Part shown: positions 24,075 to 53,607 of the stretch, piece by piece
Layout of the letters: the number at the start of each line of letters is the position of its first letter
How positions within the stretch are numbered: the first letter of the stretch is position 1
From: Clostridioides sp. ES-S-0010-02
GTDB lineage: Bacteria; Bacillota; Clostridia; Peptostreptococcales; Peptostreptococcaceae
Assembly (NCBI GenBank): GCA_020641055.1
Contig: CP067345.1
Location: 1,171,317 to 1,235,316, forward strand
Length of the DNA stretch: 64,000 nucleotides
Reading direction: 5' to 3'
The notes under the pieces: model-generated
The model's database searches: none
Seen by the model: the letters and a program-made list of their open reading frames with translations, nothing else
What the model was told of the DNA's origin: nothing
Translations under genes and position numbers: made by a program

Positions 24075-24098
24075 TATATGAATAAGAAATAATATATA

Positions 24099-24132
24099 AA
24101 AGACTGTCGCACTAAAAATAGGGTGACGTCTT
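24099..24132 (+). terminator. Terminator after aspS
   Basis: An imperfect stem (AGACTGTCGCAC with GGTGACGTCT, two bulges) is followed by eight T. It ends the hisS-aspS transcript. Confidence 0.75.
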
Positions 24133-24321
24133 TTTTTTGTACTATTTAATAGTAATAATTGTCAATTAAAAGTAACATTAATTATTATTTACACAATTCT
24201 AAAAAAGAATTCTGTTAGATTAATAATCCAAACTATTCCTACCTGATACTACAAACAATAAAATACTATATTAGACAAAAAAATTAAAAAATTACCAAAT
24301 TAAAAATTATTTAAAAATAAA

Positions 24322-24350
24322 TTGACAACGATTTCGAGTTGTTATAATAT
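24322..24350 (+). promoter_or_regulatory. Promoter and possible operator of the GntR/PTS operon
   Basis: TTGACA (24322-24327) is followed by TATAAT (24343-24348, 15-bp spacer) or TAATAT (24345-24350, 17-bp spacer). A dyad ACAAC...GTTGT (24325-24342) fills the spacer and would block polymerase if bound; the GntR protein encoded next is the obvious candidate. The rest of the 24133-24407 gap is AT-rich without further features. Confidence 0.6.
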
Positions 24351-24407
24351 GTAATAAAGAACTTGTTATATAATGTTATAAAAATACTACATGAGGGGGT
24401 GAGTAAA

Positions 24408-25160
24408 ATGGATGAAAAAAAGCAAAAAAAAGAAATGGACTTAGAGGTAAATTCATTTATTCCTTTGTACCAACAACTATATGACAACATAAAAAAACAA
24501 ATAGCAGCTGGTATATATAAGCCAGGAGATAAACTTCCATCTGAAGTAGACCTATGTAAGGAGTTTAATATAAGTCGTATAACTGTGAGAAATGCGCTTA
24601 ATGAACTTGTAAAAGAAGATATATTATGTAAAAAGCGTGGAAAAGGAACTTATGTAACTATTCCAGAGAGAATAGAAGCAACATGTGCAGGAAATAGTTT
24701 TACTAATTCTTGTCATCGTATTAATGCAAAACCAAGTACTAAGATAATCTCTATTTTGATAAAAAAAGCTGATAAGCAGGTGGCTGAAGCTTTAAATATT
24801 GAACTAGAAGAGAAGATAATATGTATTAAAAGACTTCGATTAATAGATGAAGTACCTGTTATTTTTGAAGTTGATTACTTTAGAATAGATTACATGTTTT
24901 TATTAAAAGAAGAGCTGGAAGATAAGTCTTTAATGGAAGTTATATCTAATAATATAAGTACACTACCTAATCGTGTGGAAAATATATTTGAAGTAAAACA
25001 CTCAAACAAAGAATATTCTGACCACCTTAAATGTGCAAGCAATATGGCATTATTAAAAGTAAGACAATTAGTATATACAGAGAATAATGATGTTTTATAT
25101 TACAATGAACAATTTATAAGAAGTGATAAGTATAAATATGCAGTATCAGCAGAAATATAA
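24408..25160 (+). CDS. GntR-family regulator (HutC type)
   Basis: The 250-aa protein has an N-terminal winged helix-turn-helix (PLYQQLYDNIKKQIAAGIYK, then LPSEVDLCKEFNISRITVRN) and a C-terminal UTRA ligand domain. Such regulators bind phosphorylated sugars and usually repress the adjacent sugar operon. The ATG at 24408 is used because GAGGGGGTGAG lies just upstream; an upstream in-frame TTG has no ribosome site. It is the first gene of the PTS operon, 24 bp before EIIA, which implies autoregulation. Confidence 0.92.
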   Translation: MDEKKQKKEMDLEVNSFIPLYQQLYDNIKKQIAAGIYKPGDKLPSEVDLCKEFNISRITVRNALNELVKEDILCKKRGKGTYVTIPERIEATCAGNSFTNSCHRINAKPSTKIISILIKKADKQVAEALNIELEEKIICIKRLRLIDEVPVIFEVDYFRIDYMFLLKEELEDKSLMEVISNNISTLPNRVENIFEVKHSNKEYSDHLKCASNMALLKVRQLVYTENNDVLYYNEQFIRSDKYKYAVSAEI

Positions 25161-25184
25161 TTTACACTTAGGAGAGGAATAAAT

Positions 25185-25598
25185 ATGAGAAAAATAATAT
25201 TAGCGTCTCATGGAGACTTTTCAAAAGGGCTTTTAGATTCAGTAAAAATGATAGTAGGAGATTTAGCAAATTGCGTTAATTCATACAGTTTATATCCTGG
25301 ACAAAGCGCTTCAGATTTTGCTTTAGAGTTAGAAAAAACAATAGTAGAAGATAAAGAATGTGAATATATAATTTTATCTGATTTATACGGAGCAAGTGTA
25401 TGTACTGCTATGTTAAGGTTAACTAAGTTACATAATGTTAAGCTATTTTCAGGAATGAATTTAAATATGGTATTAGAGCTTCTTACAAGATTTTCTGATA
25501 AATTAACAACTGAAGATGCAGAACAGTTAGCAAAAGAATCTAGAATGGGAATACAAAATGTAACATTACAAATAAATGAAGAAGAAGAGGTATTTTAG
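25185..25598 (+). CDS. PTS EIIA component, mannose family
   Basis: The 137-aa cytoplasmic protein takes phosphate from HPr and gives it to EIIB. The active histidine is His9 in IILASHGDFSKGLL, the standard place for the mannose/fructose/sorbose family. AGGAGAGGAA precedes the ATG. It is encoded separately from EIIB, with an unrelated gene between the two. Confidence 0.93.
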   Translation: MRKIILASHGDFSKGLLDSVKMIVGDLANCVNSYSLYPGQSASDFALELEKTIVEDKECEYIILSDLYGASVCTAMLRLTKLHNVKLFSGMNLNMVLELLTRFSDKLTTEDAEQLAKESRMGIQNVTLQINEEEEVF

Positions 25599-25601
25599 TT
25601 T

Positions 25602-26345
25602 ATGGACAATAAGGGAATATTATCAGTTTTTAAAAACAAAAAGCCAATTATAGCAATGATACACCTAAAGGGAGATACTTCAGATGATATTTTTGAAAGA
25701 GCTAAAAAAGAAATTAGTATCTTAGAAGCAAATGGTGTAGATGGAATAATGTTAGAAAATTACTATGGCAATTACTATGATTTAGAAAGAATACTTGAAT
25801 ATGTATCTAAATCTAATTTGTCAATACCATATGGAGTAAATTGCTTAAATGTTGATACTATGGGATTTGAACTAGCAACAAGATATAATGCAAGCTATGT
25901 ACAAGTTGACTCTGTAGTAGGTCATGTCAAACCTAGAGATGAGGCTACTTTAGAAGAATTTTTCAAATTACACCGCTCAAAATGTCAAGCTTATTTAATT
26001 GGAGGGGTACGTTTTAAGTATCAACCAGTTTTATCAGAAAATACTGTTGAAGAAGATTTAAAGATAGGAATGACAAGATGTGATGCTATAGCAGTTACAG
26101 AAAATGCTACAGGGCAAGAAACATCAATGGAAAAAATAGAATTATTCCGCAAAAATGTAGGAGATTTCCCTTTAGTTATTGCAGCTGGAGTTACATTAGA
26201 AAATGCAAAAAAGCAGCTTGAGATAGGGGATATGGCAATAATAGGAAGTTACTTCAAAGATAATTACCAAGACTTTGGAGATGTTAGTGCAGAACATGTA
26301 AAAACATTTATGGATGAAATAAAAAAAATTAGGGAGGAATTATAA
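25602..26345 (+). CDS. BtpA/SgcQ-family protein in a PTS operon
   Basis: The 247-aa TIM-barrel-like protein starts with KKPIIAMIHLKGDTSDD and contains GVDGIMLENYYGNYY and VIAAGVTLENAKKQL, which fit the BtpA family. SgcQ of the E. coli sgc PTS operon is a relative. The reaction is not established; a role in processing the phosphorylated substrate brought in by the linked PTS is inferred from position. It starts 4 bp after EIIA and its last base overlaps the EIIB start, so it is translationally embedded in the operon. Confidence 0.82.
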   Translation: MDNKGILSVFKNKKPIIAMIHLKGDTSDDIFERAKKEISILEANGVDGIMLENYYGNYYDLERILEYVSKSNLSIPYGVNCLNVDTMGFELATRYNASYVQVDSVVGHVKPRDEATLEEFFKLHRSKCQAYLIGGVRFKYQPVLSENTVEEDLKIGMTRCDAIAVTENATGQETSMEKIELFRKNVGDFPLVIAAGVTLENAKKQLEIGDMAIIGSYFKDNYQDFGDVSAEHVKTFMDEIKKIREEL

Positions 26346-26815
26346 TGATTAAATTAGTAAGGGTAGACCACAGACTTATACATGGACAAGTAGCATTTAC
26401 ATGGACAAAGTTTTTAAATACAGATTGTATATTAATAGCAAGTGATGAACTATTAAAGGATGATTTAAGAATGGCAGGGCTTAAAATGGCTAAGCCATCT
26501 AATGTCAAACTTGTAATGAAAAGTATCGCAGATTCTATAAAAGCACTTAATTCAGGTGTAACTGATAAATACAATCTTTTGATACTTTGTGAATCTGTAG
26601 AAGATGTTTATAGACTATCTAAAGAAGTTAAATCTATTAAATCAATAAACCTTGGTGGAACAAAATCAGATGATAATCGTGAAAATATATCTAAAGCAGT
26701 TCATGTATCAAAGGATGATATAAACATGATTAAAGAATTAGATTCAGAAGGTGTAAATGTATTCGTACAATTAGTTCCTGATGATGATGCTACAAATGTA
26801 ATGAAACTAATATAA
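26345..26815 (+). CDS. PTS EIIB component, mannose family
   Basis: EIIB receives phosphate from EIIA and phosphorylates the sugar during transport. The 156-aa protein starts MIKLVRVDHRLIHGQVAFTW with the active His14 in RLIHGQV. The length and motif are typical for the mannose/sorbose family. Start overlaps the previous stop by one base after GGGAGGAATTATA. Confidence 0.95.
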   Translation: MIKLVRVDHRLIHGQVAFTWTKFLNTDCILIASDELLKDDLRMAGLKMAKPSNVKLVMKSIADSIKALNSGVTDKYNLLILCESVEDVYRLSKEVKSIKSINLGGTKSDDNRENISKAVHVSKDDINMIKELDSEGVNVFVQLVPDDDATNVMKLI

Positions 26816-26831
26816 TTTTAGGGGGATAAAA

Positions 26832-27590
26832 ATGGAATTTACACAAGTTATTCTAATAACTCTAATTGCATTCTTTGCATATATGCATTGTTTTGTAGGT
26901 TCTACAATGCATAATAGACCTATAGTTGTTGCACCACTTGTTGGTTTAGCACTAGGAGATTTACGTACAGGTATAATAATAGGGTCAACATTAGAACTAG
27001 TATTTATGGGTGCATTCCCAGTTGGAGCAAGTAATCCTCCTGACTTTGTATCTGGTTCTATTATTGCTACAGCATTTGTAATATTAACTGGTCAAGATGT
27101 ATCAGCAGCAGTTGTACTTGCAGTTCCTATAGCAACTTTAGTATTACTTATAGACAACTTCTTAATGACAGTAGTACTTACATGGGGAGCTCATCTTGCT
27201 GACCGTTATGCAGAAGATGGTAACATTGAAGGCGTAGAACGTATACAATTATTATTTGGTATAGGCAATAAATTAATACTAGCAATAATAGTAGGTACAG
27301 GATTCTCATTAGGTGTTCCAGTAATAGAAAAAATACTTTCATTTATACCATCATATGTAATTCATGGTATGGATGTTGCAGCAGGCGTGATACCAGCAAT
27401 AGGTTTTGCCATGTTAGCTAGAATGATGCTTAATAAGAAAACGATAGCATTCTTATTATTAGGTTTTATAATGGTTGCTTATTTAAAAATAACAGTAACA
27501 GGAGTTGCATTATTTGGATTAGCAGTAGCTTTAATATATGTTAACTTTTTAGGAGAAAAGGAGGTAGTAGTAGATGACAACGAATTCTAA
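26832..27590 (+). CDS. PTS EIIC component, mannose family
   Basis: This 252-aa integral membrane protein forms the sugar channel together with EIID. It has about seven hydrophobic segments and the family segment TLELVFMGAFPVGASNPPD near residue 55. TTAGGGGGATAAAA precedes the ATG. Its 3' end overlaps the EIID start by 17 bases, indicating coupled translation. Confidence 0.94.
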   Translation: MEFTQVILITLIAFFAYMHCFVGSTMHNRPIVVAPLVGLALGDLRTGIIIGSTLELVFMGAFPVGASNPPDFVSGSIIATAFVILTGQDVSAAVVLAVPIATLVLLIDNFLMTVVLTWGAHLADRYAEDGNIEGVERIQLLFGIGNKLILAIIVGTGFSLGVPVIEKILSFIPSYVIHGMDVAAGVIPAIGFAMLARMMLNKKTIAFLLLGFIMVAYLKITVTGVALFGLAVALIYVNFLGEKEVVVDDNEF

Positions 27591-28416
27591 GAAATTAGAA
27601 ACAATTTCGCCAGATAGCAAAATAACAAGAAAAGACTTTTGGAAATGTTTTAGAAGGTCTTTAACATTAGATTCATCTTGGAACTACGAACGTATGCAAA
27701 ACATAGCATATGCATATACGATGGCACCAATAATCCGTAGATTATATAAAAATGATAAAGAAAAAAAATCTCAAGCTTTAAAAAGACATCTTGAATTTAT
27801 GTCAGTTACACCTCATATAAGTACTCTTTTAGTTGGTATATCTGGAGCTATGGAAGAAGAAAATGCAAAAAATGAAGAATTTGATGCAAAGAGTATAAAT
27901 GCTGTTAAGTCAAGTTTAATGGGTCCAGTTTCTGGAATAGGAGATTCATTTTTCTGGGGAACATTAAAGCTTATAGCAGCTGGAGTTGGTATAGCTTTAG
28001 CTTCTCAGGGGAATATAATGGGTCCAATTTTATTCCTTCTAATAATAAATATTCCTCACTTTATTATTCGTTATATATGTTTAGATAAAGGATTTAAGTA
28101 TGGAACTCAATTTTTTAAAGATGTAAGTGGTTCAAATATAGTCTCAAAAGTTATGGAAGCAGCATCAATGCTAGGACTTATGGTAATTGGAGGGATGACC
28201 GCCTCTAATGTAATACTAAAACTTAGTGTTAATGTAGGGAGTGGAGAATGGGCAGAGCCTATTCAAACTTACTTAGACCAAATAATGCCATGTATGCTTC
28301 CAGCTATGATATTTGGAATTATGTATTGGTTATTAGGAAAAAAAGTCAAGACAACTACGATATTAATTTCAGTTATGATTATTTGTATAATATTAGCTGC
28401 AATTGGGGTAGTATAA
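27574..28416 (+). CDS. PTS EIID component, mannose family
   Basis: The 280-aa membrane protein completes the transporter. It begins ITRKDFWKCFRRSLTLDSSWNYERMQN cut here to its key part RRSLTLDSSWNYERMQ, and carries EFMSVTPHISTLLVG, SSLMGPVSGIGDSFFW and C-terminal membrane helices, all typical of EIID. It is the last gene of the operon; a weak GC stem (AAAGGGG 28468-28474 with CCCCTTT 28499-28505) may terminate it. The sugar is not identifiable from sequence. Confidence 0.94.
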   Translation: MTTNSKKLETISPDSKITRKDFWKCFRRSLTLDSSWNYERMQNIAYAYTMAPIIRRLYKNDKEKKSQALKRHLEFMSVTPHISTLLVGISGAMEEENAKNEEFDAKSINAVKSSLMGPVSGIGDSFFWGTLKLIAAGVGIALASQGNIMGPILFLLIINIPHFIIRYICLDKGFKYGTQFFKDVSGSNIVSKVMEAASMLGLMVIGGMTASNVILKLSVNVGSGEWAEPIQTYLDQIMPCMLPAMIFGIMYWLLGKKVKTTTILISVMIICIILAAIGVV

Positions 28417-28422
28417 GTAAAA

Positions 28423-28620
28423 TTATGAATATGATTTTTGATAATCTTTTCTACAATTGAAATATATAAAGGGGGGGCGTACTAAAAAATAGGCGATTCC
28501 CCTTTTGAATAAAAAGTAAATACTAAGTTCAAATAAATCACCAATTTTATGCCTATAGTGGCAAGCACCTTTTTCTTTTTTATCCATTAAAGTTATCTTT
28601 ATCTTTGGTCTTCTAGCCAT
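28423..28620 (-). pseudogene. Truncated small-protein gene (TIGR04076-like N-terminus)
   Basis: On the reverse strand AAGGAGG precedes an ATG at 28620 and the product begins MARRPKIKITLMDKKEKGAC, then HYRHKIGDLFEL. This start resembles the N-terminus of TIGR04076-type small proteins. After that the sequence turns into hydrophobic, low-complexity residues up to the stop, unlike the Cys-containing remainder of that family. It looks like a 5' fragment whose 3' part was replaced or lost. Confidence 0.5.
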
Positions 28621-29125
28621 AATCTTACACATCCTCCTTTGTATTCATATTCAATATAATAAAAATACTGTATTTTAAAATTTTATCATGAATTCGTTTT
28701 TAAGTAAATTTTGTTTTAAAAACTATTTTTATAATAATAATCAGAAAATTTAGACTAAATTTGATTAGTAAAGTTGTAATAAATTCACTAAAAATAAGTT
28801 AGAATAGGTGAAAATTGAAGTATTTATAAGCCTCATAAAAAATATTTGGGAATAAATTACACACTATAAAATTTTAATAAAATAAGTATAATTCTAATAA
28901 AACTGAAATAAATTTAAAATATGTGTGAATAGTCTAAATTTAAATAATAATTTTAGACTATTTATCTATCTATAACTTAAATTATATCAAATTGATAATA
29001 AACTATATATTATACTTTTTTGTAGAGTAGAATTATAATTATAGAAAGAAAAAAAACTATCAAGGGTGAAAAAAATGTAGAAAAAAGTAGAAAAGATTCT
29101 TTTACAAAGAAAGGGAGGGATAATC
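28621..29125. other. AT-rich intergenic region before the NCS1 permease
   Basis: About 500 bp of very AT-rich DNA. It contains an 11-bp inverted repeat (AATAGTCTAAA at 28928-28938, complement at 28952-28962), which could be a terminator or operator. It also holds the 34-bp element at 28982-29015 that recurs upstream of the DUF917 gene. No gene is visible. Confidence 0.6.
28982..29015 (+). promoter_or_regulatory. Putative LysR-type operator, copy 1
   Basis: The element begins TTATATCAAATTGATAAT and ends TATATATTATAC. It holds the perfect dyad TATCAAATTGATA (28985-28997), which fits the T-N11-A pattern of LysR-type sites. It is 30/34 identical to 32204-32237. It lies about 110 bp upstream of the permease start. 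Confidence 0.6.
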
Positions 29126-30358
29126 TTGCAAGAGAGAGAAGAATTAGTTTTAAATCCAGTTCCAAAAGAGGAAAGAGTTGGATGGTTAGCTCCATTATTT
29201 AATATGCTTGGCTCTAATATAGCCATATCAGAATTAATGGTTGGAGGAACCTTAATTTTAGGAATGACTCTTTCCAATATGATTATTACATCAATTATAG
29301 GGAACTTAATATTAGTCGCAATTATTATGATACAAGGTTATATTGGTTGTAAAGAAGGGTTAAATACATATGTATTAGCTAAGGGGGCATTTGGAGAGAT
29401 AGGTGGAAAATATCTAATATCTCTATTGCTTGGAATAACTAGCTTTGGTTGGTTTGGTGTACAAGCAGGAGTTGCGGGATTATCAGTACAAAAAATATTT
29501 CCAAGTGTAAACTTAACTCTAGTCACAGTTATACTTGGATTATTAATGGTAGTTTTCGCTTTGTATGGTTTTAAGGCAATGGCTAAGTTTAATTACTTAG
29601 TTATACCACCACTTATAATATTAATGGCTTGGGGAGTTTTTAAAGCTTTTTCTACTTATGGAGTTGAAGCTATCTACAATTACACTCCTCAAACAACAAT
29701 GAGCATGGTTGAAGGATTAAATATGGTTGTTGGTCTTATCATAGTCGGTGCGATTATATCACCTGACCAATTAAGATATACAAGGGGAGTAAAAGATATT
29801 TGGATAATTGGTTTTTTAGGATTAGGTATTATTTCATTGTTCCAACAAGTTGCAGCAGGTGTAATGTCTATGGGTGCTCCTACTTGGGATATAACAGAAG
29901 TATTGGCTAATTTAGGATTTGGATGGATAGCATTTGTTATTTTAATACTTGCATCTTGGTCAACCAATGTATCAAATGCCTATTCTGGTGGATTGGCACT
30001 AAAAACTATTTTTCCAAATGTAAAGAGAAATGTATTAACTTTAGTTGCAGGTCTAATAGGTACAACAATAGCAGCTACTGGTATAATATTCAAATTCCAA
30101 TCGTTCTTATCTTTCTTAGGAATAGCAGTTCCAGCTATAGCAGGAATTATGTGGTGTGAATATTATTTTATACAAGGAAGAACTTATAAACACAGAGAAG
30201 GAATAAATTGGATTGCAGTAATAAGTTGGTTAATTGGTTTTGCAGCATCATATTATACTTCAAAAATAAGTTTCTTAATACCACCAATAAATGGAATTGT
30301 AGTAAGTATGATTCTTTATTATATACTAATGAAATGTTTTGGAAGTAAGGATAAATAA
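29126..30358 (+). CDS. NCS1-family nucleobase/hydantoin-type permease
   Basis: The 410-aa membrane protein has about twelve hydrophobic segments and CodB-like features: an N-terminal PVPKEERVGWLAPLFNMLGS region, GTLILGMTLSNMI and a GWFGVQAGVAGLS segment. NCS1 carriers take up cytosine, purines, allantoin or hydantoins with Na+ or H+. The start is TTG with GGGAGGGA 5 nt upstream. The nitrilase-family gene follows after 13 bp, so the pair is an operon for uptake and hydrolysis of a nitrogen compound. Confidence 0.88.
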   Translation: MQEREELVLNPVPKEERVGWLAPLFNMLGSNIAISELMVGGTLILGMTLSNMIITSIIGNLILVAIIMIQGYIGCKEGLNTYVLAKGAFGEIGGKYLISLLLGITSFGWFGVQAGVAGLSVQKIFPSVNLTLVTVILGLLMVVFALYGFKAMAKFNYLVIPPLIILMAWGVFKAFSTYGVEAIYNYTPQTTMSMVEGLNMVVGLIIVGAIISPDQLRYTRGVKDIWIIGFLGLGIISLFQQVAAGVMSMGAPTWDITEVLANLGFGWIAFVILILASWSTNVSNAYSGGLALKTIFPNVKRNVLTLVAGLIGTTIAATGIIFKFQSFLSFLGIAVPAIAGIMWCEYYFIQGRTYKHREGINWIAVISWLIGFAASYYTSKISFLIPPINGIVVSMILYYILMKCFGSKDK

Positions 30359-30371
30359 AGGGGGAATTTGT

Positions 30372-31178
30372 ATGAGTCGTAAAGTGAAAATAGGTATAAT
30401 TCAACAGCATAGTGTACTTGGAGATGTTAAAAAAAATATAGAAAAAGCAGTAGAGATGATAGATGATTTGGGAAATCAAGGTGCAGATATTATTTGTTTG
30501 CCAGAATTATTTGCTACAGGATATAACTTAGAATATTTAGGTGGAATTAAAACATTAGACCTAATAAGAGAACATAACAAATACATAGAAGAATCAATGT
30601 CAGAAGCAGCTAAAAGAAATAATGTATACCTAATATCTCCATATGGAACTTTAGAAAAGGACTCTACACATGTTTTCAACTCAGCTGTTATATTCGATAG
30701 ACAAGGTAATATGATGGGAGAATACTGTAAAAATCACCTATGGTCATTAGAAGCAGTATACTTTAAAGCAGGGGAAAAAGTAGATGTATATGATGCTGAT
30801 TTTGGTAAATTTGGTGTAATGATATGCTATGATGCAGGATTCCCAGAAGTGGCTAGAGAGTTGACATTAAAAGGCTCTGAAATAATATTTATACCTTCTG
30901 CATGGAGAATACAAGATGAAGATATGTGGGATTTAAACGTATCTCAAAGAGCTTTAGAAAATACTGTGTATACAGTAGGAGTAAATTTAGTAAGTAATGA
31001 CCCTAATTTGATACTGTTTGGAAAGAGTAAAATATGCAATCCTAGAGGAACTATAATAAGTCAATTAGATACATATAGAGAAAAATATATATTAGCAGAG
31101 ATTGACCTAGATGAAATAGAAAAATATAGGAACGATATTCCATACTTAAAAGACAGAAAAAATAGTTACAATATATAA
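30372..31178 (+). CDS. Carbon-nitrogen hydrolase (nitrilase superfamily)
   Basis: The 268-aa protein shows the Glu-Lys-Cys triad: Glu in CLPELFATGY, Lys in YCKNHLW and Cys in MICYDAGFPE. Such enzymes cut amide or carbamoyl C-N bonds, for example of N-carbamoyl amino acids. ATG 30372 is chosen over an upstream in-frame start because AAAGGGGG precedes it. Pairing with an NCS1 carrier suggests it acts on the imported compound; the compound is unknown. Confidence 0.9.
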   Translation: MSRKVKIGIIQQHSVLGDVKKNIEKAVEMIDDLGNQGADIICLPELFATGYNLEYLGGIKTLDLIREHNKYIEESMSEAAKRNNVYLISPYGTLEKDSTHVFNSAVIFDRQGNMMGEYCKNHLWSLEAVYFKAGEKVDVYDADFGKFGVMICYDAGFPEVARELTLKGSEIIFIPSAWRIQDEDMWDLNVSQRALENTVYTVGVNLVSNDPNLILFGKSKICNPRGTIISQLDTYREKYILAEIDLDEIEKYRNDIPYLKDRKNSYNI

Positions 31179-31224
31179 TTTTACATTATATGTTAAGGTA
31201 CAATTTTGATAAAAAATAAAATAG

Positions 31225-31278
31225 GAGGATATGTCAAACGCTAAAGATAAAGTTATTAACTCTGTTTGATATATCCTC
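31225..31278. terminator. Bidirectional terminator between convergent genes
   Basis: A 15-bp stem (31225-31239 with 31264-31278, one G-U pair) lies between the nitrilase gene and the converging LysR gene. A T-rich run follows on the + side and an A-rich run precedes it, so it can serve both transcripts. Confidence 0.75.
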
Positions 31279-31299
31279 TTTAATAATACCAGCTTTGGT

Positions 31300-32169
31300 T
31301 TAAAGGTTTTTGAAATAGTTTATAAGAAAGTCTTTGAATAATAAGACTGCTTTAGATGCATAATTCTCACTAAACCATGAAAGATTTAAATATCTTTTAA
31401 ATTCAATATCTTTTATATGTAATAGTTTAATTTCAGGGTCTCGAGATAAGCCCCATGATTTTCCACATATAAATCCAACTCCTTGAAGTGATTTTATAAG
31501 AGCATAGATTGTATATGGAGAATCGGATTCAAAGGCTATTTTGGGCTTGAAATTAGCTGATTCACATAATATATCTATTATTTCTCTGTAATTCTCACCT
31601 TTAGTTATAACTATAAAATTTTCATCTGAAACTTCATTTAGATAAACCTCATCTTTTAAAGATAGAGAGTGGTTTATTGAAACTCCTAATAATATTTCCT
31701 CACAGGTTAATGTTATATTATTTTCTGAGTTTAATTTTGTAAATGAAGAAGATATATACAAATCAAAATCACTTTTCTTATAAGACGATGGTAGAGTATG
31801 TGAAACATTAAAGGTAATATTAGGATATAGTTTTCTAAAGTTGCTCAAAAGTGGCGGTAATACATTAGCAGCTGCTGTAGCTAATATTTTTACTTCACCA
31901 GAGTTTTCTAAGGAAATATCTTGTAATTCTTTTTTTGACATTTCTACTAAATCTAAAATACTATCCACCCTTTTTAGAAATAATCTACCATACTCATTTA
32001 GTACAATATATCTTCCTTTTCTATCAAACAACTGAACTCCAAGTTCTTTTTCTAAAGAAGATATGGTTTTACTTAAAGCTGGTTGTGCTATATTTAGTTT
32101 TTGTGATGCTTTTGTTATGTGTTCCATTCTAGCGACAGTTTGAAAATACTTAAGATGCAATAAATCCAT
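31300..32169 (-). CDS. LysR-type transcriptional regulator
   Basis: The 289-aa protein has the LysR winged helix at its N-terminus (LLHLKYFQTVARMEHITKAS, then LNIAQPALSKTISSLEKELG) and a periplasmic-binding-like effector domain. It is divergent from the DUF917 gene, the usual arrangement of a LysR activator and its target. The shared 34-bp element suggests it also controls the permease-nitrilase pair. The effector is probably the transported compound or a product (inference). Confidence 0.93.
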   Translation of the reverse strand: MDLLHLKYFQTVARMEHITKASQKLNIAQPALSKTISSLEKELGVQLFDRKGRYIVLNEYGRLFLKRVDSILDLVEMSKKELQDISLENSGEVKILATAAANVLPPLLSNFRKLYPNITFNVSHTLPSSYKKSDFDLYISSSFTKLNSENNITLTCEEILLGVSINHSLSLKDEVYLNEVSDENFIVITKGENYREIIDILCESANFKPKIAFESDSPYTIYALIKSLQGVGFICGKSWGLSRDPEIKLLHIKDIEFKRYLNLSWFSENYASKAVLLFKDFLINYFKNL

Positions 32170-32203
32170 AATATAAAATACACCTCTTTTAATATAACTT
32201 GAA

Positions 32204-32237
32204 TTATATAAATTTGATAATTAATTATATATTATAC
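32204..32237 (+). promoter_or_regulatory. Putative LysR-type operator, copy 2
   Basis: This copy begins TTATATAAATTTGATAAT and ends TATATATTATAC, 30/34 identical to 28982-29015. The dyad is weaker (TATAAATTTGATA). It lies in the divergent LysR/DUF917 intergenic region, the expected place for LysR binding. Confidence 0.6.
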
Positions 32238-32340
32238 ATTATAATACAAAGCTTGTATAATAAACTATAATATGGCATAAAGTTATGTAAATATTTACTA
32301 ATACATTTACATAATCTAACTAATAAAGGAGATATTTAAT

Positions 32341-33402
32341 ATGAAATTAACTAAGGAAATATTAGAATATGCTTTAATAGGAGGTACAATTTTAGGTGGA
32401 GGAGGTGGTGGTGCAAAGGAAAGTGGAAGAGAGATGGGGGAATATGCCTTACAACATGGATTTCCAAATCTAATAAGTATAGATGAATTACATGATGATG
32501 CAATTGTCTTAAATGTATCAGCAGTAGGAGCTCCAGCAGCACCACTCAAGTATGCTGATAATGATGATTATATAAATACAGTCAAGATATTTATTGATAA
32601 ACTAGGATTAGATATACAAGGTATTATTACAAATGAAAATGGAGGATGTGCAACAATAAATGGATGGCTTCAGTCTTCTGTACTTAAAATACCACTAATA
32701 GATGCACCTTGCAATGGTAGAGCCCATCCAACAGGCCTGATGGGGAGCCTTGGATTACATAGAGATAAAACATATAAGTCTTATCAAGCTGTGTCTGGTG
32801 GAAATCCAGAACTTGATAATCATATAGAGGGATTTGTAGAGGGTTCTTTAAATAAGACAGCAGGACTTGTTAGACAGTGTGCTGTAGCAGCAGAAGGTTT
32901 AGTTGCTGTAGCTAGAAATCCTGTAAAAGCATCTGTTGTAAAAGAAAATGCTGCTATAGGAGGTATAAGCCATGCAATAGATTTGGGTAGAGAGTTTTAC
33001 TTAGGTTTAGAAATATCAAAAGATAAAGCAATAAACAACGTTGTCGAATTTTTGAATGGAGATGTAGTTTCAGAAGGAACAATAGAAATTTTAGAGTTAG
33101 AAACTATAGGTGGATTTGATGTAGGTAAATTGATTGTAAATGGTTATGAGGTAACTTTTTGGAATGAATATATGACAATAGAAAAAGAGAATAATAGAAT
33201 AGCAACATTTCCAGACTTAATTATGACTTTTGATAAAAACACAGGCATGCCTGTTACATCAGCAGAAATCAGAGAAGGGCAAGAGATAGTTTTAATAAAA
33301 ACTTCTAAAGAAAATTTAAAACTTTCAATAACAATGACACAAGAAGAATTATTAAAAGATATAGAAGATATATTAAATAAAAAAATAATTGGAGTTAATT
33401 AG
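32341..33402 (+). CDS. DUF917 family protein (hydantoinase/S-methylthiohydantoin desulfurase-like)
   Basis: The 353-aa protein has the glycine-rich N-terminus of the family (LIGGTILGGGGGGAKESG) and the segment ENGGCATINGW. DUF917 domains occur alone or fused to hydantoinases, and a subset has been linked to thiohydantoin desulfurisation. AAAGGAGATATTTAAT precedes the ATG. Position next to LysR and near the permease, nitrilase and DUF1177 genes suggests a catabolic step for a cyclic ureide-like compound. The reaction is not established. Confidence 0.82.
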   Translation: MKLTKEILEYALIGGTILGGGGGGAKESGREMGEYALQHGFPNLISIDELHDDAIVLNVSAVGAPAAPLKYADNDDYINTVKIFIDKLGLDIQGIITNENGGCATINGWLQSSVLKIPLIDAPCNGRAHPTGLMGSLGLHRDKTYKSYQAVSGGNPELDNHIEGFVEGSLNKTAGLVRQCAVAAEGLVAVARNPVKASVVKENAAIGGISHAIDLGREFYLGLEISKDKAINNVVEFLNGDVVSEGTIEILELETIGGFDVGKLIVNGYEVTFWNEYMTIEKENNRIATFPDLIMTFDKNTGMPVTSAEIREGQEIVLIKTSKENLKLSITMTQEELLKDIEDILNKKIIGVN

Positions 33403-33666
33403 GATATGTAGTAATTTGATTGATTGAAGAATTAAAATTAATTAAATTTAATGAGCAATATAATACCTATAAAACTATAAATAAAACAAATACTTAGGAA
33501 AAAGTTTATAAAAATAAAAAAATAAATAAGATATTAAATATAATAAGAAAAAGTTTATAAGAATATAGATAAAATAAAAAAATGCTGTAATATTTATAAA
33601 AATAAAAGTAAAAATATTTAAACAAAAACTATAAATAAAAGAAATAAAATTGGATGGTGAGCAAAT

Positions 33667-34602
33667 ATGATGTTAAAACAAGTTTTGGAAGTTTATGATA
33701 TTATTGATAGCGCAGAAGTAGATGGAGAATGTGTAAAAAAATATTTGGAAAGCTATGGTGGGAAGAATATATTAGTAAAAACTTTAGGTACAGAAAAAGG
33801 GTCTACTGACTTAGTAAAGCTTACAATACCAGGAAAAAATGGAAAATCATCAGGAGGAACAGCTAAGACATTAGGTGTTTTAGGAAGACTAGGAGGAATT
33901 GGAGCAAGACCAGAAATGATGGGTATGGTTTCTGACGCTGATGGAGCTTTAGTAGCAATAGCAGTAGGAGCAAAATTATTGGACATGCAGAATAAGGGAG
34001 ATTTTATTGATGGAGATGTAATAGTTTCAACTCACATATGTCCAGATGCACCTACTAAAGAACATAAACCAGTTCCATTTATGGATTCTCCAATTGATAT
34101 GAGAACTATGAATGAAAATGAAGTTGATTTAAGCTGTGATGCTATATTATCAATAGATACAACTAAAGGGAATAGAGTTATAAATACAAGAGGTTTTGCT
34201 ATATCTCCCACAATAAAAGAAGGGTATATTCTAAAAACAAGTAATGATTTATTAGACATAATGCAGACTACTACAGGAAGACTTCCTTACGTATTTCCAG
34301 TGTCAATACAAGATATAACTCCATATGGAAATGGTTTATACCATATAAATAGTATTCTTCAGCCTGCTGTAGCTACAAAAGCACCTGTAGTAGGAGTTGC
34401 TATAACAACTGAGACAACAGTTGCTGGATGTGCAACTGGAGCAAGTAATTATTCTGATTTAGAGAGTGCAGGAAGATTTGTTGTTGAAGTAGCAAAACAC
34501 TATTGTGGTGGAAATTGTGAGTTTTATGATGAACATGAATGGAATATTTTAATGAATAGATATGGAAGCTTAGATAAGTTTCAAACTTTTGGAGAAGAAT
34601 AA
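33667..34602 (+). CDS. DUF1177 family protein
   Basis: The 311-aa protein begins MMLKQVLEVYDIIDSAEVDG and contains TLGTEKGSTDLVKLTIPG, GIGARPEMMGMVSDADGA and STHICPDAPTKEHKPVPFMD, which I recognise as DUF1177. The His/Asp-rich HICPDAPTKEH segment could bind a metal. No reaction is known for the family. GGATGGTGAGC before ATG 33667 is a weak ribosome site. A 264-bp AT-rich gap separates it from the DUF917 gene with no terminator visible, so they may be one transcript. Confidence 0.8.
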   Translation: MMLKQVLEVYDIIDSAEVDGECVKKYLESYGGKNILVKTLGTEKGSTDLVKLTIPGKNGKSSGGTAKTLGVLGRLGGIGARPEMMGMVSDADGALVAIAVGAKLLDMQNKGDFIDGDVIVSTHICPDAPTKEHKPVPFMDSPIDMRTMNENEVDLSCDAILSIDTTKGNRVINTRGFAISPTIKEGYILKTSNDLLDIMQTTTGRLPYVFPVSIQDITPYGNGLYHINSILQPAVATKAPVVGVAITTETTVAGCATGASNYSDLESAGRFVVEVAKHYCGGNCEFYDEHEWNILMNRYGSLDKFQTFGEE

Positions 34603-34711
34603 AGTTGTCTTTTATTGATGTTTTAGAATGGATGATATAGGCTAAATTATTGTGATATAATATTTAGAGTAAATAAAAATTGTAGATATAATAATTTTAG
34701 GGGGAGTTAAT

Positions 34712-36139
34712 ATGAAATCAACAAAATCAATATCATCAGTATTGTGTTTATCTCTAGTTTTAAGCTTATCATCAATATCATATGCAAATGAAGTGGGTAG
34801 AACGGCAACAGAAAATACTTTAATAGGTAAAGATAGATATCAAACAGCTATTGAAGTAAGTAAAGAGGGTTGGAGTAGCACAAATGAAGCTGTAATAGTG
34901 AATAGTGAATCTATTGTAGATGCATTATCTGTTACACCATTTGCTAAATTAAAGAACGCTCCAATACTACTTACAGAAAAAAATAATTTAAATTTACAAA
35001 CAAAGAAAGAATTAGAAAGATTAGGTGTTAAAAAAGTTTATATAATTGGACTATCTGGTTCTGTATCAGATAATGTAGAAAAACAACTAGAATCTAATAA
35101 CTTAACAGTTGATAGAATTGGTGGTAGTGACAGACATCAGACAGCTTTAAACATAGCTAAAAAGATAGAAGGTTTAAAAGACATATCAGAAATAGCTGTG
35201 ATAAATGGATATACAGGTCTTGCAGATGCAGTTAGTATAGCTTCTGTAGCTGCTACTAATGGTATGGTTATACTTCCGGTTTCTGATGCATCTGGAGTGT
35301 CTAGTTTTAAGGATTTTATAGCTTCTAAAAATATAAGTAAGTCATACATAATAGGCTCTACTAATGCTGTATCAGATAAAATAAAACAAAGTCTACCAAA
35401 TTCAGAAAGAATAGGTGGAGCAGATAGAAATGAAACAAATGGAAAGGTAATAGAAAAATTTTATACATCAAATGACTTAGATAATGTATTTGTAGCTAAA
35501 GATGGAATGAAAAAACAAAATCAACTTATAGATGCTCTAGCAGTAGGTGTATTGGCATCAAAAGAAAATTCTCCAGTACTTATAGTAGGAGATAAATTGA
35601 GTGCAACTCAAAAGAGTATATTTACAAATAAAAAGGCGACTGCTATAACTCAAGTTGGTAGTGGTGGAAATGAAAATGCATTTGCAGAACTAAAAGATTT
35701 ACAAGGGAGTAGTACTGGTAAGAAAGTAATGTATGTAGCTAATACAGATAAAGTAAATGTAAGAAGTGATGCTACAATAGAAGCTTCTGTAGTGGGTTAT
35801 CTAAACAATGGTGATGAAGTAGAAGTTTTAGAAGTACTAAAAACGGGATGGGTTAAGATAAAATACAATGACGATATTGGATATGTCAGTGGATCTTATC
35901 TAACAAGTAATAAACCTAATAACAGCAGTGAGAATGTTAAGATAAAATATGTAAAAGAAAAAGATGGTCTAAATGTTAGAAAAGGACCAAGTACGGAAGA
36001 TGAAAAAATAGGACAACTTCCATATGGAAGTAAGGTAGAAACTGTAGAAATGTTTGCTACTGGATGGGTAAAAATAAAATACAATAGTGGATATGGTTAT
36101 GTAAGTAATGATTACCTATCTGATACACCAGTTATCTAA
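34712..36139 (+). CDS. cwp14: Cell-wall protein with CWB2 repeats and two SH3 domains (probably Cwp14)
   Basis: A signal peptide (about residues 1-26, ending SSISYA) leads to three tandem CWB2 (PF04122) repeats with the hallmark RIGGSDRHQTA and RIGGADRNETN blocks. Two bacterial SH3 domains follow (starting MYVANTDKVNVRSDA and IKYVKEKDGLNVRKG). CWB2 triplets anchor proteins to the wall polymer PSII in C. difficile. SH3 domains bind wall peptides, so this is a surface protein with wall-sensing or structural function but no enzyme domain. TTAGGGGGAG precedes the ATG. The number 14 is from memory of the genome order. Confidence 0.88.
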   Translation: MKSTKSISSVLCLSLVLSLSSISYANEVGRTATENTLIGKDRYQTAIEVSKEGWSSTNEAVIVNSESIVDALSVTPFAKLKNAPILLTEKNNLNLQTKKELERLGVKKVYIIGLSGSVSDNVEKQLESNNLTVDRIGGSDRHQTALNIAKKIEGLKDISEIAVINGYTGLADAVSIASVAATNGMVILPVSDASGVSSFKDFIASKNISKSYIIGSTNAVSDKIKQSLPNSERIGGADRNETNGKVIEKFYTSNDLDNVFVAKDGMKKQNQLIDALAVGVLASKENSPVLIVGDKLSATQKSIFTNKKATAITQVGSGGNENAFAELKDLQGSSTGKKVMYVANTDKVNVRSDATIEASVVGYLNNGDEVEVLEVLKTGWVKIKYNDDIGYVSGSYLTSNKPNNSSENVKIKYVKEKDGLNVRKGPSTEDEKIGQLPYGSKVETVEMFATGWVKIKYNSGYGYVSNDYLSDTPVI

Positions 36140-36153
36140 ACTTATAGATAATA

Positions 36154-36200
36154 AACAATAAAGAGACTGTCTTAATATTAATGACAGTCTCTTTATTGTT
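36154..36200 (+). terminator. Terminator after the cell-wall protein gene
   Basis: A perfect 18-bp stem (36154-36171 with 36183-36200) closes the transcript. The remaining AT-rich bases to 36512 hold a TATAAT-like box near 36440 but nothing else I can support. Confidence 0.9.
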
Positions 36201-36512
36201 ATGAAATGTAGATTTTAATAATGATTTATATTTTGATAACCTAACTTTAGAAGTTATTATTGTAGATATTATTAATATATAAATACTTAAAATCCGATGC
36301 TTAATACCAAAATTGCATATTAATATGATGAGATAATTTAAATATAAATAATTTTATCTAATTATTATTATAAATTAAGTAGTAATATAAAAGAAATAGC
36401 TAAAATGAGTCCTTTTATTTTTGTTTTTTGTATCTATTTGGTATAATAGTATTGAAACATATAATAATTTAGATAAAATTTCTTAAGAGAAATACTATGA
36501 GGAGAACATAAA

Positions 36513-36914
36513 ATGAAAAAATGTCTTTACTGTAATAGGGATATAAAGTCACCAAATAATAAATTGGCTATAAAATACGATGACAATACCAATATATATC
36601 CATGCCGTACAGAATGTAAGGAAAAAATTGAAGAATATATAATAAAAAAACCTACTTATAAGTTTATAAATATATTGGAGGTTCTTTTAGGTGTAGGTGG
36701 AATATTTTGCTTTTTGAGCAAATGGACTATTGCAGCCCAAATTGTACTTGGAATTGACGCATTAGTTATATTTTTATTTCCATTAGCAGGGTTTAAGATG
36801 AATGGTAAATTAAGTATGGAGCAAACTAAGCATCAGAGCAGGTCTATAGCAATATCAATTTTAGCATTTATAATAGTAATAACTGTATTATATTTTAAGC
36901 AAATTGGTAAGTAA
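36513..36914 (+). CDS. Small zinc-ribbon membrane protein, hypothetical
   Basis: The 133-aa product starts MKKCLYCNRDIKSPNNKLAI with a CxxC pair and a second Cys pair in YPCRTEC, which could bind zinc. Three hydrophobic segments follow (about residues 54-70, 72-92 and 110-127). I do not recognise the family. TGAGGAG precedes the ATG. It lies 42 bp before the CsoR gene and may be in one transcript with it. Confidence 0.75.
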   Translation: MKKCLYCNRDIKSPNNKLAIKYDDNTNIYPCRTECKEKIEEYIIKKPTYKFINILEVLLGVGGIFCFLSKWTIAAQIVLGIDALVIFLFPLAGFKMNGKLSMEQTKHQSRSIAISILAFIIVITVLYFKQIGK

Positions 36915-36956
36915 ATCATAATTGTATAGAACATCATAAGAGTATGAGGTGAGTTT

Positions 36957-37250
36957 ATGGAAGAAAGAAAATTAGCACCAAACAATGAGCGAGAAGCTCT
37001 TATAAAAAGATTAAAAAGAATAGAGGGTCAAGTTAAAGGGATACAAAAGATGGTAGAAGAGGAACGTTATTGTGTTGATATATTAGTTCAAATATCTGCT
37101 ATAAGGTCTGCTATAAATAGAGTGGGTACAATTATTTTGGAAAATCATATAAAAGGATGTGTAGCAGAAAGTATCAAACATGATGATAGTGAAAAAACTG
37201 AAGAGATGATAAAAGAACTTATGGATACCATAAATAAATTTACAAAATAA
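36957..37250 (+). CDS. CsoR/RcnR/FrmR-family metal- or sulfur-sensing repressor
   Basis: The 97-aa all-helical protein has the family start (RLKRIEGQVKGIQKMVEEERYC) shortened here to RLKRIEGQVKGIQKM. It carries the Cys-His-Cys ligand set of CsoR (Cys in ERYCVDIL, His and Cys in ENHIKGC). Such tetramers bind DNA and release it on Cu(I) or reactive sulfur. No copper ATPase gene is adjacent; an RseC-like gene follows after 14 bp and is the likely co-transcribed partner. Confidence 0.9.
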   Translation: MEERKLAPNNEREALIKRLKRIEGQVKGIQKMVEEERYCVDILVQISAIRSAINRVGTIILENHIKGCVAESIKHDDSEKTEEMIKELMDTINKFTK

Positions 37251-37264
37251 GGGGGCGATTAGGT

Positions 37265-37705
37265 ATGAATCAACAAGGATTTATTATGGAGATTGTTGAT
37301 GATAGAACTGCAAAATTAAAAATGCAAAGACACTCAGCTTGTGCTGCTTGTGGAAAATGTGCTACTGCTGACTCATCAGAGTCAAAAGAGATATTAGTAG
37401 AGGTAGACAATACAATTGGTGCGAAGGTTGGTGACCATGTAGAAGTAAGTATGGATAACATGAATGTATTAAAAGCAGCTGTGATGGCTTATATAATACC
37501 TCTTGTAGCACTTCTTGTTGGAACAATAGGAACATACTATATATTGGGAGCAATTGGCATGACATCTGGCGTTGAAGCGATAAGTGGATTAGTTGGGATT
37601 TGTCTTACAATAATTTGTTATTTGTATTTAAAGAAGAATGATAAAAAATTTAGAGATAGTAGAGAATTTATACCAGTAATCACAAGAATCTTAATTGACC
37701 TTTAA
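37265..37705 (+). CDS. RseC/MucC-like SoxR-reducing-system protein
   Basis: The 146-aa protein begins with a cytoplasmic Cys cluster (HSACAACGKCATA) followed by two membrane helices (about residues 75-97 and 105-125), the standard RseC layout. RseC proteins are linked to the Rnf complex and redox control of SoxR. It follows the CsoR gene with GGGGGCG as ribosome site. The pairing suggests a redox or metal response; the precise role is unknown. Confidence 0.88.
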   Translation: MNQQGFIMEIVDDRTAKLKMQRHSACAACGKCATADSSESKEILVEVDNTIGAKVGDHVEVSMDNMNVLKAAVMAYIIPLVALLVGTIGTYYILGAIGMTSGVEAISGLVGICLTIICYLYLKKNDKKFRDSREFIPVITRILIDL

Positions 37706-37720
37706 AATGATTATAATTTA

Positions 37721-37786
37721 AAAATAGCAATGTACTCTTATAAACACTTAATGTATATTTATAGGATTTGGGTACATTGCTATTTT
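37721..37786. terminator. Bidirectional terminator between RseC-like and ThrE-like genes
   Basis: AAAATAGCAATGTAC (37721-37735) pairs perfectly with 37772-37786 around a 36-nt loop. T-rich DNA follows, and it separates convergent genes. Confidence 0.75.
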
Positions 37787-37793
37787 TATATTT

Positions 37794-38267
37794 TTATTTT
37801 GATTTTCTTTGAGGAATAAAGTTCTTTCGTATTTTTAAAAGGTTTAATGTTCTTACAAAAGAAGTTACAACCAATACACCAAGCGATATTGCAGCACTTA
37901 AAAATAGTGCATCAGTACCTTTTGACATAGCTAAATCATAATTTTTTTGAATTAAAGATAACATTGTATTGTATAATCCAATTCCTGGTATCAGAGGAAG
38001 AATACCTGGAATTACAAATACAATAGCTGGTTGCTTTAGTTTTCTAGCCAATATCTCACTACATGCTGAAACCAAAGCGGCAGCTATAAAGCCCGCAAAA
38101 ATTGAGTTTGTAGTGAAATTAAATAAATATACATACACAATCCAACCAACTCCACCAGTTATTCCAGCTGGAAGAAGTAGATAAAGTGGTGCATTAAAAA
38201 AAACAGCAAATCCAGCAGTTGCAATGCCTGAAAATAAAAAATGTAAAATCATTGACATATCAGTCAT
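37794..38267 (-). CDS. ThrE-family exporter, C-terminal-type subunit (DUF3815)
   Basis: The 157-aa protein has four or five membrane helices and the segment PGILPLIPGIGLYN typical of ThrE_2. In ThrE of Corynebacterium both halves form one threonine/serine exporter; here they are two proteins. Its start overlaps the end of the N-terminal-half gene by one base, so they are coupled. A fully separate function cannot be excluded. Confidence 0.9.
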   Translation of the reverse strand: MTDMSMILHFLFSGIATAGFAVFFNAPLYLLLPAGITGGVGWIVYVYLFNFTTNSIFAGFIAAALVSACSEILARKLKQPAIVFVIPGILPLIPGIGLYNTMLSLIQKNYDLAMSKGTDALFLSAAISLGVLVVTSFVRTLNLLKIRKNFIPQRKSK

Positions 38268-39055
38268 TAGAAAGGACCTCCAATTCTATACCATGTATCA
38301 AGGACAAAACCGACTCCAGAAGCAATTGCAATAATAATCATAGCAGCATCGAAAGCACGAGAAATTCCTGATATTAAATTACCTGATATTAAATCTCTGA
38401 TGGCTTTTATAAAAGCAACTCCTGGGAGTAGTGGCATTATTGCTCCAACTATAAGCATTTTAGGGTCATTCAAAATACCTATTTCAACTAGTAAAACTCC
38501 TGAAAGTGCTATTAAAAAAGAAGATACTAAACATGAAAATGCAGATATTGCACTTATCTTCATGGTTTTATCATAAGTAATTGCAGCAAATATTGCTATT
38601 ATAAATGTAAGAATAAAATTTAATATATAATTCCCTCCAAGCAAGCAAGCAAAGCAAGCAGATGCAATTCCTGTACAAGAGTAAAACAACCATAAAGGAT
38701 AAGGTTTTACCTCTTGAATTTCATAAAGACGTGCAATAGCAGTATCAATATCATATTCTTTATCATTTACAAATTCTCGAGAAAAACTGTTTAATAAGGA
38801 AATCTTATTTAAGTTTATACCTCTTGATTGAATCGTTTTCATAAACGAAAAACCGTCAAATTTTTCATCTGAAATAATTATTACTGTAGGAGTTGTAAAA
38901 ATATTTACATGATAAAATCCTCTTGACCTGCATATTCTAAGGACACTGTCTTCAACCCTAGATGTTTCAGCTCCATTTTTTATCATAAGTTCCCCTACAA
39001 ATAGAGCTAATTTTAGAATATTTTTTTTATATTCAAGTTCCTCATTTTGATTCAT
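38267..39055 (-). CDS. ThrE-family exporter, N-terminal-type subunit (DUF1212)
   Basis: The 262-aa protein has a soluble N-terminal domain (ELMIKNGAETSRVEDSVLRI at about residues 17-36) and about five membrane helices, matching the ThrE domain. A role in exporting threonine, serine or small peptides is inferred from the family. AGGAGG lies upstream on the reverse strand. It is divergent from glyA (serine-glycine interconversion), which fits an amino-acid balancing role but is not proof. Confidence 0.9.
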   Translation of the reverse strand: MNQNEELEYKKNILKLALFVGELMIKNGAETSRVEDSVLRICRSRGFYHVNIFTTPTVIIISDEKFDGFSFMKTIQSRGINLNKISLLNSFSREFVNDKEYDIDTAIARLYEIQEVKPYPLWLFYSCTGIASACFACLLGGNYILNFILTFIIAIFAAITYDKTMKISAISAFSCLVSSFLIALSGVLLVEIGILNDPKMLIVGAIMPLLPGVAFIKAIRDLISGNLISGISRAFDAAMIIIAIASGVGFVLDTWYRIGGPF

Positions 39056-39261
39056 AAATACACCTCCAAATTAAAAAACATAATATTGAAATTATATCAA
39101 ATTTTTAAGTAATATTCCTTATATATATATAAATTATATTATCTTTTTTTATTTAAAAATAGTCACATCTAAATTATATCCAATTAAAAGAATTAGACAA
39201 TATTATTTATTATATTTTAACTTAAAATACAGAAAGAAAACATGTAAAAGTAGTAAAACAC

Positions 39262-39310
39262 TTGACTATTAATTTATAAAAGACTATAATAATAAATTAT
39301 CATATTGATA
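39262..39310 (+). promoter_or_regulatory. glyA promoter with dyad
   Basis: TTGACT (39262-39267), a 17-bp spacer and TATAAT (39285-39290) form a strong sigma-A promoter. Just downstream lies TATCATATTGATA (39298-39310), an inverted repeat of 5-bp arms resembling a LysR-type box. The rest of the divergent 39056-39371 region is AT-rich with nothing else visible. Confidence 0.7.
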
Positions 39311-39371
39311 AAAACGAAAATTATGAAATGTCTGTAAAAGTAAAATTTAAATAATAACTAGGAGGAGTAAT

Positions 39372-48593: not shown

Positions 48594-48748
48594 TTTTTAG
48601 CTCCCTTCTAAATTAATTGTAATTATATATAGTATTATTATAGTTTGAAAGTGTTATTATTAATAGTTACATATTTGAAAATAAAGTCGCAATAGTATTA
48701 TAAAATATGAATAATTAATAAATTTAAGAAAAAATGTAAAAAAGTAGT

Positions 48749-48777
48749 TGACCATATTATAATAAGATGTTATGATA
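48749..48777 (+). promoter_or_regulatory. rRNA operon promoter
   Basis: TTGACC (48749-48754), a 17-bp spacer and TATGAT (48772-48777) lie about 170 bp before 16S. The leader contains AAGGAACC repeated twice near 48794-48810 and then the upstream arm of the 16S processing stem. The 48594-48748 part shows nothing further. Confidence 0.75.
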
Positions 48778-48856
48778 ATAAATGTGCTCAACAAGGAACC
48801 AAAAGGAACCAAAAAATAATGAGTACAAAATGATTTATTTAATAAAATGAACTTTG

Positions 48857-50476
<1,620 letters not shown>

Positions 50477-50555
50477 GAGGGTTCGTTTTTACGAATACTC
50501 AATTAGCACTTTGAGCAACAGGATTTATCTGTTGGCGCTGTGCGTTAGCACTTTG

Positions 50556-53607
<3,052 letters not shown>

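Follow-up and report, generated by a model that had tools for sequence, protein, structure and literature searches.

Five neighbouring genes in a 64,000-nucleotide stretch of DNA from Clostridioides sp. ES-S-0010-02 (contig CP067345.1, positions 1,171,317 to 1,235,316; hereafter the window) look like a co-regulated kit for the uptake and breakdown of a small ring-shaped amide. They encode an NCS1 carrier, a carbon-nitrogen hydrolase of the nitrilase superfamily (the amidase below), a LysR regulator, a DUF917 protein and a DUF1177 protein (Table 1). The window sits in a 4.26-Mb single-contig genome, G000 in our comparisons. All five genes had been named in a preliminary description of this DNA, and both the list of open reading frames (ORFs) and a Pfam scan found them present, intact and full length. 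The gene set thus stands, while its layout had to be amended. The LysR gene lies inside the set on the minus strand, pointing away from DUF917 and towards the amidase, with a plus-strand pair on either side: NCS1-amidase (29126-31178) and DUF917-DUF1177 (32341-34602, with 264 bp between DUF917 and the DUF1177 start). The amidase start was also moved, the ATG at 30372, behind AAAGGGGG, being more likely than the TTG at 30339.

Two gene pairs with an operator-like element in common

The operator-like elements upstream of NCS1 and between LysR and DUF917 are identical at 42 of 48 positions, ungapped. Their local alignment score of 66 was reached by none of 2000 first-order shuffles (maximum 40), and elsewhere in the window 230-bp slices reach 40 at most, except for two overlapping ones upstream of NCS1 (66 and 51). 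The core dyad, TATCAAATTGATA, is exact at NCS1 and carries one mismatch at LysR; the window has two more one-mismatch sites, one at 39298 and one at 42387. Since these sites and related ones served to derive a degenerate 34-mer, finding it at them is given by construction; what counts as a result is that it is absent elsewhere. When up to three mismatches are allowed, it has exactly two sites in the whole window genome, both at this locus. Across eight Clostridioides genomes (G000-G007), in each of which the same site was examined, there are two sites each in G001 and G004, one in G006 (at NCS1), and one each in G002, G003, G005 and G007 (at LysR). Read backwards, the pattern has no site in the eight genomes. 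Because the LysR gene is divergently placed, we infer that its product may be the protein that binds the element. The shared element at both gene pairs supports, on sequence alone, the earlier suggestion of a co-regulated uptake and hydrolysis set, and it is very probable that the five genes form one regulon.

Within the genus, the genes of each pair are present or absent together at this site. A LysR orthologue (95-100% identical) is there in all eight genomes, NCS1-amidase in four and DUF917-DUF1177 in three; NCS1, DUF917 and DUF1177 were sought genome-wide, and the amidase at this site only, where it is absent from G002, G003, G005 and G007. In the five genomes without the DUF pair, the similarity takes in the LysR promoter and breaks off at 32359-32363, some 20 nt into the DUF917 gene; it is picked up again at 34612-34643, just beyond the DUF1177 stop. 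The 5' remnant of DUF917, most evident in G006, with 15 identical bases, and in G002, suggests that the pair was lost in the genus rather than gained late; the remnant is short, and for this reason the loss is not certain.

A second DUF1177 gene, 75-76% identical to that of the window, lies elsewhere in seven of the eight genomes. Where viewed (G000, G001, G005 and G007), it adjoins an M20 peptidase and a DUF3100 protein, Pfam names taken from the relatives L006 and L005. G004, which keeps the window cluster, has only a fragment with stops at the second locus (L118, G004:C1:806473-806637), so that none of the eight genomes lacks an intact DUF1177. A LysR gene also lies at the second locus in G000 and G001; it is 45-46% identical to that of the window and is its closest paralogue (the next is at most 37% identical). 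When the operator-like element was sought at the second locus, the best score was 33, nothing notable.

The DUF917-DUF1177 partnership and the proteins of the set

In a survey of 398 genomes of the phylum, DUF1177 was found in 46, DUF917 in 64 and AroM in 44, AroM accompanying DUF1177 in 36 of its 46 genomes. Some of the DUF917 proteins match the Pfam model strongly; a second, weakly matching class includes the window protein (class II, set by eye from bit scores of 65-87 over most of PF06032); partial matches of 85.4 (G213), 41.3 (G119) and 33.2 bits (G260) were left out. DUF1177 is present in 22 of the 24 class II genomes, directly downstream on the same strand in 19 of the 24 (Fisher p 2.5e-21), and in only 2 of the 40 DUF917 genomes without class II (p 0.29), these tests treating genomes as independent and ignoring kinship. 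Among the five non-adjacent cases, DUF1177 is on another contig in G447, G174 and G275 and missing from G369 and G260. The expected co-occurrence of the two families therefore holds for class II, where the partnership is conserved. The counterparts of the pair in Anaerovirgula and Geosporobacter are 59% and 70% identical.

We also counted the neighbours of DUF1177 in the best 80 of 586 confirmed loci, a set leaning to near relatives; 79 of these have a DUF1177 ORF of at least 280 aa, and neighbours were ORFs of at least 200 aa within 6 kb, matched by BLAST at more than 60 bits. The most frequent are AroM (40 loci), M29-like peptidases (27), class II DUF917 and the OPT transporter (21 each), Asp/Glu racemase (20), PucR (17), two M20 types (17 and 16) and the Opp binding protein (16). 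NCS1 and amidase are found in two loci each and LysR and HyuA in one each. Among the loci viewed, just one other clearly matches the gene mix of the window: Neofamilia (L021) has DUF1177, NCS1 (62%) and amidase (51%) in a row, and its genome has no DUF917 match. In a quick tree of 95 DUF1177 rows, the window protein groups with the M20-linked copies of its own genus (100), and the DUF917-linked label needs 15 changes against a shuffled mean of 28.1, so the partnership has been gained or lost many times. Some neighbours recur in few loci and were not used: in L020 and L058, genes that by sequence are putative HutU and FtcD lie near DUF1177, which would link it to histidine degradation, and a 208-aa gene is common to L050 and L052-L054. 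A family of about 275 aa without a Pfam or NCBIfam match adjoins AroM in L018 (L018:10534-11457), and a similar-looking stretch precedes AroM within a single 503-aa ORF at L120:9656-11167.

Relatives of the DUF917 protein strip sulfur from (S-methyl)thiohydantoins. In a tree of 55 DUF917 rows, a 100/100 branch parts the 16 Pfam-typical rows from the remaining 39. These 39 comprise the window protein, 31 more rows adjacent to DUF1177, two others, and five rows from plasmids typed as desulfurases by BLAST, so that the window protein shares a clade with the desulfurase type. Four of these five records are annotated, with a urocanate hydratase gene beside DUF917 or three genes off (L207 is unannotated). 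The window protein scores 293.7 bits with the desulfurase model NF058529 (cut-off 440) and 268.9 bits with NF058532 (cut-off 450), and the other DUF917 of its genome 73.9 and 91.3 bits; among the desulfurase-type controls, L201 (555.1), L202 (597.4) and L206 (611.4) pass the cut-off and L203 (394.9) fails. The class II proteins scanned, namely, that of the window, five linked or adjacent to DUF1177, and that of L188, which has no DUF1177, score 250-315 bits with both models, under the cut-offs, and because of this class II likely acts on another substrate than the known desulfurases. Its conserved stretch D-A-P-C-N-G-R-A-H-P has C124 in 91% and N125 in 97% of linked rows; neither residue is conserved in the other two groups.

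DUF1177 passes the PF06675 gathering score of 25 with 451.3 bits and is strongly conserved, with a mean column identity of 71% over 54 bacterial and archaeal sequences. The HICPDAPTKEH segment singled out in the preliminary description as a possible metal site is real and conserved: the window protein and 53 homologues all have C125 and H133, and nearly all have H123. The protein is predicted to adopt the fold of the clan MH di-zinc peptidases (M20/M28/M42). In the Aeromonas aminopeptidase the metal ligands are H97, D117, E152, D179 and H256, and the base is E151. Compared by element order only, DUF1177 keeps D90 or D92 and D164, and at the other ligand places has R74, H123/C125 and G254/C255. 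As had been stated, no described reaction was found for DUF1177 in the open-licence literature searched, and no paper containing PF06675 was among the matches listed there. An excerpt on Arabidopsis RING ligases mentions DUF1177 once (PMC4738358), which we have taken as another DUF number.

The nearest solved relative of the carrier is CodB (7qoa, 4.7e-39). Relatives at E <= 1e-60 (35-39% identity) number five in the 397 other genomes, all in DUF917 clusters: four lie directly beside a DUF917-HyuA pair, and two DUF917 genes are some 5 kb away from the fifth, which has an in-frame stop. The DUF917 near these five is Pfam-typical, not class II. According to excerpts of the structural papers, cytosine is held in CodB by Gln105, Trp108 and Phe204 (PMC9379551) and hydantoin in Mhp1 by Trp117, Gln121 and Asn318 (PMC4195764). 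In a comparison of CodB with the window carrier and 10 others, all picked near DUF917 or DUF1177, the window carrier keeps the Trp (W109) and has Ser and Ile in place of CodB Gln105 and Phe204; by spacing only, W109 and Q113 fit Mhp1 Trp117 and Gln121, and a Gln at W+4 recurs in nine of the 10 others, with Glu in the remaining one. These residues lean, thinly, to a hydantoin-like ring. The amidase, aligned with 1j31 and 3ivz, keeps the Glu-Lys-Glu-Cys residues of the nitrilase superfamily. It reaches no NCBIfam cut-off (137.8 of 410.25 bits with the N-carbamoylputrescine amidase model TIGR03381), and the viral contigs scanned contain no relative of it.

Table 1. Genes and operator-like elements of the locus (window coordinates)
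Feature	Position	Strand	Evidence
Operator-like element 1, upstream of NCS1	28971-29018	+	42/48 identity to 32193-32240; dyad TATCAAATTGATA at 28985-28997
NCS1 carrier	29126-30358	+	PF02133, 8e-27
Carbon-nitrogen hydrolase (nitrilase superfamily; amidase/carbamoylase candidate)	30372-31178	+	PF00795, 2.8e-51
LysR regulator	31300-32169	-	PF00126 (HTH_1), PF03466 (LysR_substrate)
Operator-like element 2, between LysR and DUF917	32193-32240	+	Match to element 1
DUF917/S-Me-THD, thiohydantoin-desulfurase-like class (class II)	32341-33402	+	N domain 1.1e-20, C domain 4.5e-24
DUF1177	33667-34602	+	PF06675, 1.1e-135; predicted clan-MH (M20/M28/M42-like) fold

Upstream of the set, aspS and NCS1 are separated in G000 and G001 by GntR, EIIA-man, BtpA/SgcQ-like and mannose-type PTS genes (24363-28416). 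This operon is variable, being missing from that place in G004 and G006; since aspS is directly upstream of NCS1 in those two genomes, we set it aside as a part of the set. The DNA at 28525-28663 resembles a gene of 88-92 aa whose reading frame is open in G002, G003 and G005 (on the minus strand, in window orientation); the ORF list has no entry of at least 90 aa there, and it is perhaps a remnant. Farther away, G+C is 0.435 at 48001-52000, compared with 0.255-0.363 in the other 4-kb slices, and a tRNA-Thr lies at 53643-53717.

A proposed hydantoin-like route and its rivals

The best single reading of the locus is a hydantoin-like route. LysR would bind the operator-like element and respond to the substrate, and NCS1 would import a small hydantoin-like compound, probably with a substituent at position 5 (hydantoin, 2-thiohydantoin or a related cyclic amide). 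The DUF917 protein, by likeness to its sulfur-removing relatives, would hydrolyse at the ring. DUF1177, a hydrolase of M20/M28/M42-type fold with a remodelled site, would open the ring or cut the next amide bond, occupying the place that HyuA or a metal amidohydrolase has in related clusters. Finally, the nitrilase-type amidase would remove a carbamoyl or amide group to yield a fermentable amino acid. We see the evidence as evenly poised on whether the substrate is a cyclic amide of the hydantoin kind. The complete reading, with one LysR-controlled catabolic regulon, two promoters and this route, is tentative, with a probability slightly below one half, and it is doubtful that the steps follow in exactly this order. 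Rather unlikely, too, is the boldest form of the proposal, in which DUF1177 would be a new type of enzyme, its di-zinc ligands exchanged for an Asp/Cys/His/Arg site, that, once a partner DUF917 has made them accessible, opens rings of the hydantoin or thiohydantoin kind (or cuts ureido-peptides), replacing HyuA or metal hydantoinases in this route across bacteria and archaea. Of the substrates guessed at in the preliminary description, hydantoin and thiohydantoin are favoured by the DUF917 subfamily and by the kinship of the carrier, and nothing specific points to a pyrimidine.

Several observations weigh against the complete reading. Class II DUF917 is missing from 24 of the 46 DUF1177 genomes, and of 14 genomes picked because their DUF1177 loci lack DUF917, 12 give no DUF917 match anywhere; of the other two, one has a Pfam-typical DUF917 (135.6 bits) and one a weak match elsewhere (85.2 bits). 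Oligopeptide transporters and peptidases are frequent beside DUF1177, which, together with these 12 genomes, means that DUF1177 may catalyse something other than a hydantoin step. AroM, its commonest partner, is not found in the window genome, and G006 keeps NCS1-amidase-LysR without the DUF pair. The pair may be of mixed origin, given that the closest relative of the window DUF1177 is the copy that the genus itself carries beside the M20 peptidase. The window DUF917 falls short of the desulfurase cut-offs by 146 and 181 bits. No sequence search of PDB, Pfam or by hhalign ties DUF1177 to peptidases: PDB sequences gave chance matches only (CD8, a peroxygenase and an RNase P protein), Pfam on 54 members found no peptidase at E up to 10, and hhalign against 14 M42 sequences gave a probability of 0.9% over 44 C-terminal columns only. 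Promoter-like sites in the region (48 versus 41.5 expected, sd 6.0) and terminator-like sites (1 versus 1.2) are about as many as by chance, and these scans therefore tell nothing about joint transcription. Of the pathway described earlier, co-regulation, co-occurrence and the lean to hydantoins are supported; the DUF1177 genomes without class II DUF917, the transporter and peptidase neighbours and G006 speak against a single obligatory pathway.

The main rival is a peptide-derivative route for the DUF pair, which would merely share a regulator with NCS1-amidase, a small salvage system for, e.g., a cytosine-like or a nitrile or amide substrate. The gene content of G006, the Neofamilia row without DUF917 and the AroM, M29-like, OPT, racemase, M20 and Opp neighbours of DUF1177 all fit such loosely joined functions, but the element common to both pairs, the union of NCS1-amidase with DUF1177 in that same Neofamilia row and the DUF917 genes adjoining kin of the carrier do not, and we consider this explanation possible but somewhat unlikely. 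A branch of ergothioneine degradation, in which DUF917 would be a genuine thiohydantoin desulfurase with a sulfur ring as substrate, would agree with the clade of the protein and with the 250-314 bits of the linked proteins scanned. It is nevertheless improbable: the desulfurase cut-offs are not reached, and no urocanate-hydratase-like, ammonia-lyase or amidohydrolase gene is seen among the ORFs of 24000-40000 (nine of them Pfam-scanned; the rest of the genome was not searched for ergothionase), whereas the annotated clusters L201-L203 and L206 each carry at least two of these gene types and their records are not among the seven plasmid records with DUF1177. Pyrimidine or nucleobase catabolism, to which CodB as nearest solved structure and the beta-ureidopropionases of the nitrilase superfamily could point, is very improbable given the cytosine permease score of 201.5 bits (cut-off 326), the loss of CodB Gln105 and Phe204 and a cluster in which neither the ORF list nor Pfam reveals a dihydropyrimidinase or deaminase.

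For DUF1177, the locus confines the question to a pair of small operons whose operator is predicted and in which its partner is defined; a substrate screen could thus be read through one regulator. It would reveal the fate of ring-shaped products of amide or peptide breakdown in many gut and soil anaerobes.

Comparison with known systems

Clusters of the (S-methyl)thiohydantoin desulfurases (NF058529, NF058532) belong to ergothioneine degradation. They resemble the locus in having DUF917 of the same clade together with uptake and hydrolases, and differ (L201-L203, L206) in their annotated urocanate hydratase and amidohydrolase, a Zn-dependent hydrolase in three of the four, and the lack of DUF1177. 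The clusters of PucR, racemase, OPT, DUF917, DUF1177, AroM and M29 contain the same DUF917-DUF1177 pair, but an oligopeptide-type transporter and a peptidase replace NCS1 and the nitrilase, and their rows show no match to the window LysR. Cyclodipeptide oxidase clusters are reported to be enriched in hydantoin racemases, DUF917, AroM and OPT, the first three in oxidase clusters without cyclodipeptide synthases; the excerpted text regards DUF917 proteins as likely hydantoinases and does not name DUF1177 (PMC11055893).

The NCS1-DUF917-HyuA clusters likewise have NCS1 beside DUF917, and hydantoinase-like chemistry is expected of them; they differ in a Pfam-typical DUF917, in HyuA where the window has DUF1177, and in that no nitrilase was noted. 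One of them (L114:4069-8062, G000:C1:2513000-2517100) has counterparts of its NCS1 and DUF917 in all eight Clostridioides genomes, and is probably CDR20291_1615-1617, the permease, DUF917 protein and hydantoinase listed among the changed genes in an hcpR study (PMC12915319).

The locus can also be set beside Mhp1/Hyu hydantoin utilisation, whose NCS1 carrier is Mhp1 (PMC4195764). The likeness lies in such a carrier joined to ring-opening and decarbamoylating steps, which for the locus are predicted; the enzyme families that serve both hydrolyses differ.

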